From NCBI GenBank assembly GCA_022820025.1, contig JAJEGF010000053.1, positions 1 through 49,647 on the forward strand: a stretch of 49,647 bases of DNA. The letters are read 5' to 3'. The DNA comes from Chloroflexota bacterium (lineage in GTDB: Bacteria > Chloroflexota > UBA11872). Positions within the stretch are counted from its first letter, which is position 1. Each line of letters opens with the position of its first letter. Shown here piece after piece: positions 12,278-15,322 of this stretch. The notes under the pieces are model-generated. The model saw nothing but the letters and a program-made list of their open reading frames with translations. It made no database searches and was not told where the DNA came from. The position numbers and the translations under genes are program-made.

Positions 12278-13147
12278 TCAGGCCCTGGGGCTGATGACGA
12301 CGCGGCGCTCGTCGCCCTCGCCGATGCTGTACGTCCGCACATCCTCGTCGTCCGCCAGCGCCACGTGCACCAGCCGCCGCTCGTTGGCCGGCATCGCCTC
12401 CAGCGTAATCGGCTCCTGCGTGGCTCTCACCTCGTCCGCCAGCGTTTCCGCCAGTTCAGCCAGTTGATCCGCCCGCCGCTGCCGGTACCCGTTCACGTCC
12501 ACGATCACCCGGCATGGCCGGCCCAGCCGCCGGCCCAGCATCAGGTTCACCAGGTACCCAAACGCCCGCAGCGTCTCACCCTGCCGCCCGATCAGCCGCC
12601 CAAAGTCCTCGTCGCCCACGATGTTGTACGCCAGCGGCTCGTCCGACACGAGGTCGAAGTCGGCCACGAACCCCATCCGGTCCAGCAGGCTCTCCAGCAA
12701 CTCCTCCGCCTCGTTCTCCAGGTCCTCGCCCGACTCCAGCAACTCCCCGCGCGGACGCCGCCCGGTCGCTGCCGGGGCCGGTGTTGCGGGCGGTTCACTG
12801 GCGGCCGCGGCCGGAGGCTCGGTCTCCGCCACTGGCGCCTCCACCGCCGGCTCTTGCTCTTCGACCGCTTCGGCCTCAGGCTCGTCCGCCACGGCTTCCG
12901 TCGCTTCGTCCGGATCCTCGACCTCGTCCGCGGAGTCTTCTTCCGAGTAGGGCCGGCTGCGCATCCGCACCCGTACCCGCGCGTCTTCCCGTCCCATGCC
13001 CAGCACGCCGCGCGACCCTGAATTGATCACGTCCACGTCGATCTCATCCAGCGTCACGTTCAATTGCAGCAGCGCGCGTTTCACCGCGTCTTCCACCGAA
13101 CTGCCGGTTACGATCACGCCGTCGCCGGCGCCAGAATCGTTAGCCAC
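12278..13147 (-). CDS. jag: RNA-binding protein EloR/Jag (KhpB)
   Basis: A 289-residue SpoIIIJ-associated protein. The Jag-N domain occupies residues 1-60. A strongly acidic, Pro/Ala-rich linker covers about 68-128. A KH domain has its GxxG at 187-190 (IGRQG), and the C-terminal R3H domain has the Arg-x3-His signature around 257-261 (ERRLVH). Homologues bind RNA with KhpA and affect cell elongation and YidC-linked processes. It follows yidC with an 8-base overlap and starts with GTG, the conserved yidC-jag pairing. The acidic linker is longer than in many homologues. Confidence 0.95.
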   Translation of the reverse strand: MANDSGAGDGVIVTGSSVEDAVKRALLQLNVTLDEIDVDVINSGSRGVLGMGREDARVRVRMRSRPYSEEDSADEVEDPDEATEAVADEPEAEAVEEQEPAVEAPVAETEPPAAAASEPPATPAPAATGRRPRGELLESGEDLENEAEELLESLLDRMGFVADFDLVSDEPLAYNIVGDEDFGRLIGRQGETLRAFGYLVNLMLGRRLGRPCRVIVDVNGYRQRRADQLAELAETLADEVRATQEPITLEAMPANERRLVHVALADDEDVRTYSIGEGDERRVVISPRA

Positions 13148-14759
13148 CGCGTCTCCTCCGTCGTCGCCGCCTGCGTCGTGGGCGGGTCGTTGTTTCGGGC
13201 TTCGACTCGGTCTCTGTCGCCTCGGCCTCGGCCTTGGCTGCTTCCACCTTCGCTTGATGCTCCCCCATCACGTCGCGCGCCATCGGCCAGTGGGCAGGAA
13301 ACAGCTTCCCGGTCCCCGTCGTGAAGTATTGCTGAACGATCGCAATAATGCTCGAAATCACCCAATACACGACGAGTCCCGCCTGAAATGTCCAGGCAAA
13401 GACCACCACGATGATCGGCATGAACTGCATCACCCGGTTCATCGTCGCCGCCTGCCCGGTCGCGGTACTGGACGCCATCATTCGCGCTTGTATGAGTTGG
13501 AACGCGCCTGCCAACAGCGCCAGAACCGAGATATAGAACCCGCCCGACGCAAACAGGTCAAAGTTCGCGGGCAGCCGCGTAAAGCCCGCGACCTGCGCCG
13601 CCTCCTGCCCCTGGCCGCTGTTCCACCAGTCCCGCAGGTAGGTCTTTGTCGAATCGGTGGCCGGACCCCAGTAGGCGTACACATCACGGGCCAGCGCATA
13701 GCGTCCGTCCTCCAGGACGTCCGCCAGCGCCGGATAGGCGCGGTCGGCCCCTCGCGCCTCGATGTTCAGCATCCGGATGTCATCCGTCCGCATCGGCGGC
13801 GAGACGCCCAGCGATCCTGGTTCCGCCCGGAGCGCATTGAAGTAGTCGTCCACGCTGTTGTGCTCGCGGATGGGAACTTGGATCGGATCGCCGTTCAGCA
13901 CGACCTGTTCCAGCAACGTCGGGGCGCTGAGGTCGTCCTTCAACCCGTGCAGCACGATCGGACCCACCCCCGCATCCAGATCCGCCCAGTTCACAATCCG
14001 GCCACGCAGAATCCCTTCAACCTGATCGACCGTCAGACGCGTGGCCGCCCGGTCCCGTTCCACCAGGAATGCCGCCGCCTGCACCAGGCGCGTTTCGTCA
14101 GTTCCCGCGGGCATCTGGCTCAGATCCGCCTCGTTGTCGAGAAAGATCGCCGCCGCCGTCCCATCGCTCAGCAGAGCGATCGCGGCCTCGGCGTCCACCA
14201 CGTCCGTACGGAACTGGTAATTGGCCGCGAACTGTGTGAACGACACCGCCAGCGACGACTCCAGCGGCGTCGGCAACTCCGTCGTGGCGATGACGACGTC
14301 CACGGGCTCCGTTGGTGCGGCATCCCCAACGACCTGGATCGTCGAGTCTTCCCGCGCCAGGTTGAACCACAGGAACTGCTCGTTCAGCAGCCCCCGGCTG
14401 CTGAGCGTCAGGATGCCTCCGTACAGCGCCAGCAGCACCGGCAACTGGATGAAGATCGGCAGGCACCCTGCCATTGGGTTGACGCCGCGTTCCTTGTACA
14501 ACTTCATCGTCGCTTCCGAGACCGCCTGCCGATCGCCTTTGAAGCGCTTGCGGATGTTCTCCAGTTCCGGCTGGATCAACTGCATCTTTCGCTGCGAGGT
14601 GATCTGCTTCAGCGTCAGCGGAATCATCAGCAGCCGGATCAGCACCGTGAACAGCACGATCGCGATGGCGTAGCTGCCCACCGCGTCGTGGATCAGCGTC
14701 AGCGCGTCGCTCAGCGGGTCGACGGCCCAGGTCTGCCAGGTGTTCGGGATAGCTTCCAT
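13140..14759 (-). CDS. yidC: YidC/Oxa1 membrane insertase with an inserted PstS-like solute-binding domain
   Basis: A 539-residue insertase, much longer than the usual 250-330 of Gram-positive-type YidC. The core is intact: first core helix at about 30-50 with conserved Arg42 in VLIRLLMIPLTL, cytoplasmic hairpin 51-98 (RKMQLIQPELENIR), second helix 99-118, then third to fifth helices at 404-424, 444-459 and 460-479 (AGLVVYWVISS). The tail ends in a run of Arg, plausible for ribosome contact. Residues ~137-397, in the first external loop, are extra. They read as a PstS-type binding protein: IATTELPTPLESSL, LTVDQVEGILRGRIVNW (242-258), EPGSLGV (313-319), YALARDVYAYW (354-364) and WWNSGQGQEAAQVAGF (378-393). 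The phosphate-binding Ser/Gly/Thr motif is not kept, so the ligand is unknown. Neighbours rpmH, rnpA, yidD and jag confirm the identity. Confidence 0.93.
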   Translation of the reverse strand: MEAIPNTWQTWAVDPLSDALTLIHDAVGSYAIAIVLFTVLIRLLMIPLTLKQITSQRKMQLIQPELENIRKRFKGDRQAVSEATMKLYKERGVNPMAGCLPIFIQLPVLLALYGGILTLSSRGLLNEQFLWFNLAREDSTIQVVGDAAPTEPVDVVIATTELPTPLESSLAVSFTQFAANYQFRTDVVDAEAAIALLSDGTAAAIFLDNEADLSQMPAGTDETRLVQAAAFLVERDRAATRLTVDQVEGILRGRIVNWADLDAGVGPIVLHGLKDDLSAPTLLEQVVLNGDPIQVPIREHNSVDDYFNALRAEPGSLGVSPPMRTDDIRMLNIEARGADRAYPALADVLEDGRYALARDVYAYWGPATDSTKTYLRDWWNSGQGQEAAQVAGFTRLPANFDLFASGGFYISVLALLAGAFQLIQARMMASSTATGQAATMNRVMQFMPIIVVVFAWTFQAGLVVYWVISSIIAIVQQYFTTGTGKLFPAHWPMARDVMGEHQAKVEAAKAEAEATETESKPETTTRPRRRRRRRRRRGG

Positions 14760-14774
14760 GGGACTGCCGTGGCC

Positions 14775-14984
14775 CTAGGGGACCGGGTCGTAGCCTCCGG
14801 CGTGCCAGGGGTGGCAGCGCGCCAGCCGCCGCACCGCCATCACGATTCCGCGGATCACGCCGTAGCGTTCCACCGCCTCATACGCGTACTGCGAGCACGC
14901 CGGCTCATACCTGCACACCGACCCGAACGCCGGCGACACCCGCCGCTGGTACGTCCGGATCAGTCCCAGCGCCACGGCCGTCAT
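14775..14984 (-). CDS. yidD: Membrane protein insertion efficiency factor YidD
   Basis: A 69-residue protein with the family signature: [11 protein letters not shown] near the start, then [19 protein letters not shown] and [17 protein letters not shown] with the conserved cysteines. YidD is a small amphipathic protein at the inner face of the membrane that assists YidC-dependent insertion. It overlaps rnpA by ATGA and lies 15 bp ahead of yidC. Its length is typical. Confidence 0.96.
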
Positions 14985-15322
14985 CCGGCCAGCCGCGCCT
15001 GGGATCGACGTAGCGCGTGCCGCACGGCCGCTGCCAGTTCCTCTGACGCCGCCAACGCCGCCCGCTGGCGCGGCAGCGCCACAATGTCCAGCGCGGCTGG
15101 CAGGTCCGGCAGCTGACAGCGCAAGGCTTCGCGGATTCGACGCCGCAGGCGGTTGCGCCGCACGGCCGACCCAAAGCGCCGGGAGACCGGTACCGCCACT
15201 CGCGGCGCTTCCGACTGGCCCGGCGCCACAAAGAACACGAGCGGCCGGGTTACGACCTTCGCGCCGCGCGAACGGACACGCGCGATATCAGCAGCCCGGC
15301 GCAGGCGGTTGCGGCGGTTCAT
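14981..15322 (-). CDS. rnpA: Ribonuclease P protein component
   Basis: A 113-residue basic protein with the RNR signature [16 protein letters not shown] and an N-terminal start [16 protein letters not shown] typical of the family. It binds the catalytic RNase P RNA and assists 5' maturation of tRNA. The RNA component (rnpB) is not in this window. The gene follows rpmH by 32 bp and overlaps yidD by four bases. Confidence 0.95.

Follow-up and report, generated by a model that had tools for sequence, protein, structure and literature searches.

A PstS-type domain in the first external loop of the YidC insertase in one family of Chloroflexota

The DNA analysed, called the window below, was a stretch of 49,647 nucleotides from a Chloroflexota bacterium (assembly GCA_022820025.1, contig JAJEGF010000053.1). 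It encodes a YidC/Oxa1-type insertase in a single 539-aa open reading frame with no internal stop, and the insertase is interrupted by a domain of the kind found in PstS proteins (Table 1). A first-pass annotation, made from the sequence of the window, had proposed such a YidC with a PstS-type domain in its first external (E1) loop, and the profile searches bore this out. The Pfam family 60KD_IMP (PF02096) matched in two pieces flanking PBP_like_2 (E 9.9e-50, 169.1 bits, cut-off 35), with both lobes of the domain present, and TIGR03592 assigned the protein to YidC (E 1.1e-55, 188.7 bits versus a cut-off of 84.3). The four motifs listed for the domain in that annotation (LTVDQVEGILRGRIVNW, EPGSLGV, YALARDVYAYW and WWNSGQGQEAAQVAGF) were all present in the translation. 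So were the core elements it had named, the conserved Arg42, the C1 hairpin and the AGLVVYW helix: R42, the positively charged residue of the first core helix, was invariant in 17/17 aligned family members, as were A460-V463, Y465, W466 and many residues of C1.

Table 1. Coordinates of the insert-bearing yidC, its parts and its neighbours in the window, and of YidC frames from related genomes.
Feature	Sequence	Coordinates	Strand	Basis
yidC, 539-aa YidC/Oxa1-type insertase	window	13140..14759	(-)	translated frame, Pfam and TIGR profiles
N-terminal core: residues 1-136 with R42, C1 hairpin region, FLWFNLA motif	window	14352..14759	(-)	Pfam, alignment, hydropathy
PstS-type (PBP_like_2) domain, residues 137-397, in external E1 loop	window	13569..14351	(-)	profiles, predicted model, Foldseek
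Remaining core, residues 398-539 and stop, with arginine-rich C-terminal tail	window	13140..13568	(-)	Pfam, hydropathy
jag-like ORF, downstream of yidC	window	12278..13147	(-)	motif GRQGETLRAFGYLVN
yidD-like ORF, directly upstream of yidC	window	14775..14984	(-)	motif
rnpA-like ORF	window	14981..15322	(-)	motif
YidC of genus g106	L095	1384-2826	(+)	
YidC of genus g106	L096	1345-2850	(+)	
YidC of genus g106	L097	451-1899	(-)	
Sister-family YidC	L023	1495-2469	(+)	by eye
Sister-family YidC	L024	3-587	(-)	by eye
Sister-family YidC	L025	919-1893	(-)	by eye

Hydrophobic stretches were found at residues 18-54, 92-121, 398-430 and 437-480 and none within the insert. The stretch 437-480 could hold two helices, and together with 398-430 three. 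Judged by hydropathy, this pattern would fit a five-helix plan with the insert outside, and the arginine-rich tail would fit an inside location. The last residues of the tail are ten arginines and two glycines (window 13143-13178, minus strand), with 7 arginine columns invariant in 17/17 aligned members, and two sister-family YidC proteins have a similar arginine/glycine ending. The insert-bearing YidC was the single 60KD_IMP protein found in its own genome (3.63 Mb, completeness 93.6%), and there was one YidC match per genome in 19/19 genomes of its family. On these counts we rejected the idea that a second, ordinary YidC frees the insert-bearing copy from its usual duties. Since it was the only YidC found, with one match in each family genome, we infer that the insert-bearing protein is active as an insertase and most likely carries out housekeeping insertion.

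The gene lies in an rnpA-yidD-yidC setting without phosphate genes; the names of the three neighbouring ORFs were assigned from motifs, and we take them to be jag-, yidD- and rnpA-like. Strict patterns applied to 16 named loci that encode relatives of the insert (see below) recovered rnpA in 14/16, yidD in 12/16 and jag in 7/16, some of these contigs ending early. At one of them (L047) rnpA- and yidD-like frames were recognised by eye, the yidD-like one having been missed by the pattern. Read from its first GTG start, the jag-like ORF shares 8 bases with the end of yidC (window 13140-13147), which suggests translational coupling.

Elsewhere in the genome, the other PBP_like_2 protein (115.9 bits, contig C22) is encoded after a two-component pair and before ORFs that are presumably pstC-, pstA-, pstB- and phoU-like. 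We therefore rejected the possibility that the YidC insert moonlights as the PstS of the cell. Compensation for a loss of SecDF was rejected as well: SecD/SecF-family matches were obtained in 41/41 genomes of the class, in 19/19 of the family and equally in class relatives without the insert, so that these proteins do not explain why the family has the insert.

The relationship of the insert to PstS appeared weak from one sequence and firm with a family profile. PBP_like_2 (PF12849) matched the insert alone at 44.0 bits (cut-off 27), aligning residues 147-374 with profile positions 2-259 of 267. A single-sequence phmmer search of the PDB gave weak matches (best E 0.006), and the score for the PstS model TIGR02136 of NCBIfam was below its cut-off (15.7 bits versus 206.6, E 0.0067). 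With a profile of the 19 inserts, PDB chains of PstS were matched at E 2.8e-8 and 4.1e-8, the latter spanning profile positions 21-251 of 252. When the insert family was compared profile to profile with six PstS proteins, the result was 99.0% across 236 columns, with an identity of 21%.

Residues 135-403 were modelled with a pLDDT of 85.6 and a pTM of 0.80, from an alignment that combined 17 inserts with 10 PstS proteins and in which the PstS rows may have steered the prediction. Scans with PstS queries were used to widen the alignment, one of which found none. When the model was searched against the PDB with Foldseek, PstS-type phosphate-binding proteins were the best 37 of the 50 matches listed (E 1.8e-16 to 1.7e-9), in agreement with a two-lobed binding-protein fold. 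The query TM-scores of these 37 matches were 0.42-0.64, the highest to 4jwo, with an rmsd of 5-9 Å, which suggests that the modelled lobes are placed differently from those of PstS or with uncertainty. The full-length AlphaFold model of YidC was of low confidence (pLDDT 47.7, pTM 0.28), and the position of the domain above the groove is therefore predicted from topology alone. The insert was strongly acidic, with a net charge of -22 (K, R, D and E counted over residues 135-403).

The architecture recurred when related genomes were searched. Insert-bearing YidC was found in 19/19 family genomes (13 from one genus, 6 from another), one of which was a single contig of 3.0 Mb. Among the 41 genomes of the class, the insert was present in 0/22 outside the family, and YidC itself was seen in 21 of these 22 (none in G040). 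The two genera share 46-48% of insert residues, and no copy was broken. The distance from FLWFNL to YIS was 271-272 residues in the insert family versus 18-22 in three frames measured in the sister family (f2). By eye, the sister-family YidC proteins carry about 35 additional residues, a pair of cysteines among them, after the second core helix and ahead of FLWFNL.

A pattern scan of GTDB, which reaches close relatives of the insert only, matched 60 stretches, and 16 encode a relative, all titled Chloroflexi or Chloroflexota. In 16/16 of these named loci, whose species probably overlap with those of the 19 family genomes, the insert lay within one YidC frame of 540-551 aa. A scan of viral contigs with the insert profile gave no relative. 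Together, the family genomes and the named loci refuted the idea that yidC and a pst gene were joined by misassembly or a frameshift, an explanation of negligible probability when the insert is in frame across two genera, including a single-contig genome, with the core on both sides in one frame. The simplest account is a single insertion, in the ancestor of the Chloroflexota family.

We further compared YidC and the insert across the phylum. In 400 genomes, 60KD_IMP matched in 387 and the insert profile, at 1e-6, in 87, of which 19 represent the YidC of the insert family. The other 68 profile-matching genomes were evaluated by opening 14 of them and by judging 54 from frame sizes alone. Best frames were found at eleven opened loci (L071-L081), four of which were read as sequence, and a pstC-like neighbour was seen only for G105; G050, G144 and G200 yielded one PstS, one kinase-like fusion and one membrane-anchored protein. 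At L083, a 698-aa frame from base 970 (plus strand) joins a region that by eye resembles a Ser/Thr kinase to a membrane helix, followed by a PstS-type domain. There, a membrane protein thus seems to use the PstS-type fold as its external module, possibly a sensor.

Two or more 60KD_IMP matches were found in 13 genomes outside the insert family. Five had two full YidC genes, one (G228) a full gene and a split frame, three (G256, G307 and G356) YidC pieces on different contigs, and one (G080) a scaffold gap of N. The remaining three had a real in-frame YidC insert; all belong to genus g106 (family f56) and make up 3/3 of the g106 genomes sampled. Their frames are 481-502 aa long, with 165-166 residues separating the second core helix from the FLWLPSLGQPD motif, and this insert matched neither Pfam nor, at 1e-6, the profile of the PstS-type insert. 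The measurement covered the genomes with two or more 60KD_IMP matches. Large inserts, with no relationship to one another in these searches, have entered the E1 loop at least twice.

Selection on the insert was estimated from dN/dS by Nei-Gojobori counts, using 17 of the 19 sequences (the outlying genus members L014 and L015 were left out) and pairs with 0.1 < pS < 0.65. The within-genus median was 0.071 for the insert (69 pairs, largest value 0.175), 0.053 for the N-terminal core (67 pairs), 0.013 for the C-terminal core (65 pairs) and 0.152 for the C-tail (56 pairs). Between genera, one pair, with synonymous sites near saturation, gave 0.44 for the insert versus 0.29 and 0.11 for the core. 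The insert is under purifying selection and is kept for function, under a looser constraint than the core. The insert might alternatively be a nearly neutral decoration, tolerated in the loop and retained only because it has to fold, and the different insert of about 165 aa in g106 indicates that E1 accepts domains. We hold this to be improbable given a dN/dS of about 0.07 within genera, no loss in 19/19 genomes and many invariant residues specific to the insert, including R224, R235, R237, R252, R329, R340, W364 and W379. The G+C content of the insert (0.665; flanks 0.623 and 0.611) gave no sign of recent transfer. In a tree built from 5 inserts together with 19 binding proteins, which leaves out 4 of the 23 loci tried, among them the PstS of the same genome, for want of a profile hit, the insert stem was very long (2.0 substitutions per site), and the donor of the insert cannot be named for that reason.

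The phosphate site was examined at 23 pocket positions, defined by the three loops aligned to the PstS motifs GS(D/S)T, GGGSG and SGT, which we take to be the phosphate contacts of PstS. In 15 standalone relatives (the 19 binding proteins of the tree minus L082, L083, L084 and L204), at least 90% conservation was seen at 13/23 pocket positions versus 46/223 elsewhere (p 0.0004). Six representative inserts, picked by us from the 17, were invariant at 3/23 pocket positions versus 79/223 elsewhere (Fisher p 0.036), and all 17 at 3/23 versus 70/223. The GSDT, GGGSG and SGT motifs are replaced in the insert, with variable residues in place of the glycine loop, and the earlier remark that the phosphate-binding residues are not conserved holds. 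By this alignment, constraint has left the pocket of the insert. That the loops of the pocket are conserved less strongly than the remaining domain speaks against a small, conserved ligand in the PstS site, and we lean towards a contact role. The first-pass annotation had suggested that the domain would couple ligand sensing or chaperone activity to membrane protein insertion, which is a conjecture.

Certain residues in or close to the cleft were invariant in 17/17 inserts (T160, which is Ser in the aligned PstS, D276, S320 and R358), so a different ligand is possible. The insertase might then be ligand-sensing, its cleft binding a new small molecule or peptide and its lobe closure altering the core. 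The completeness of both lobes and the invariance of these four residues would suit such a sensor, as would the PstS-type domain that follows a kinase-like region (by eye) and a membrane helix at L083 in the same phylum, but loops less conserved than the remainder of the domain (3/23 versus 79/223) and a variable glycine loop argue against it, and we regard it as a tentative and rather unlikely alternative.

For the role of the insert, we give about an even chance to an external contact domain that handles clients or serves in docking. A complete PstS-type domain entered the short E1 loop between the second and third core helices; it would lie on the outer side, over the opening of the groove, and would have lost nutrient binding. 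It may hold hydrophilic segments as they leave YidC or SecYEG, or dock a Sec partner such as SecDF. Its mode of working would resemble that of the Gram-negative P1 domain, as a convergent analogue of independent origin, in another loop and with another fold. In favour of this reading we count the single YidC with its invariant core residues, the presence of the insert throughout one family only, purifying selection, the shift of constraint out of the pocket, the separate PstS, the SecD/SecF-family proteins and a gene setting without phosphate genes; against it, the invariant residues around the cleft, the faster change of the insert than of the core between genera, and the insertion that persists in E. 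coli after a large P1 deletion. An acidic domain (net -22) that is predicted to be external could also contact the surface, the cell wall or a host, tying YidC to polymers of the envelope or to a partner outside and taking little part in client handling; it would be unusual for a housekeeping insertase to carry a surface ligand, and we assign this a low probability. More speculatively, and in our view unlikely, the insert-bearing YidC would be a regulated insertase, in which the two lobes clamp a peptide or an outside cue and open or tilt the core helices, gating insertion from outside. On this view E1 would act as a general socket, fitted with different external domains by Chloroflexota on at least two occasions.

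YidC is near-universal, and the only copy found in this Chloroflexota family has a folded external domain that differs in origin and in the loop that carries it. The family is thus a natural setting in which to learn how an external domain contributes to an insertase and whether movement of E1 is coupled to insertion. It also presents a fold for binding nutrients that has shed its ligand motifs, yet was retained for something else. The first-pass annotation knew of no description of this architecture, and the titles and abstracts of open-licence PMC papers found by literature searches likewise held no description of a YidC with a PstS-type E1 insert.

Compared to YidC/Oxa1/Alb3 insertases, the protein has the same two core parts, groove arginine (R42), C1 region and rnpA-yidD-yidC setting, and differs by 261 extra residues in the E1 loop. 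With PstS/PBP_like_2 proteins (PF12849; 4gd5, 4q8r and 1twy), the insert appears to share the fold, the order of elements and sequence landmarks across the domain. It differs in being embedded in a membrane protein, in having no transporter-gene neighbours and in the loss of the phosphate loops; PstS is encoded beside pstCAB, whereas the insert sits in yidC. The g106 YidC, from the same phylum, also has a large insert in the same external loop, but its 165-166 residues precede the FLW motif and the PstS-type insert follows it. The kinase-like protein of L083 likewise carries a PstS-type domain on a Chloroflexota membrane protein, but as a terminal fusion and not as a loop insertion.

Chloroflexota are generally described as monoderm. 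In E. coli YidC, P1 is placed between TM1 and TM2 and has a different fold. P1 precedes the conserved core, whereas by Pfam and hydropathy the insert comes after the second hydrophobic stretch of the core and before its third helix; its place differs from that of P1, as had been pointed out. A passage of a preprint describes the large external domain of YidC as diderm-only (PMC13174344). P1 (3BLC and 3BS6, named in PMC7618853) is also a large folded external domain of YidC and may be an analogue in its manner of working. According to parts of the same source, P1 of E. coli has a cleft and contacts both SecF and inserting chains, and Sec-dependent clients are still inserted after a large P1 deletion (PMC7618853). 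By analogy, the cleft and the SecF contact would provide a precedent for an external chaperone or docking domain on YidC (PMC7618853).
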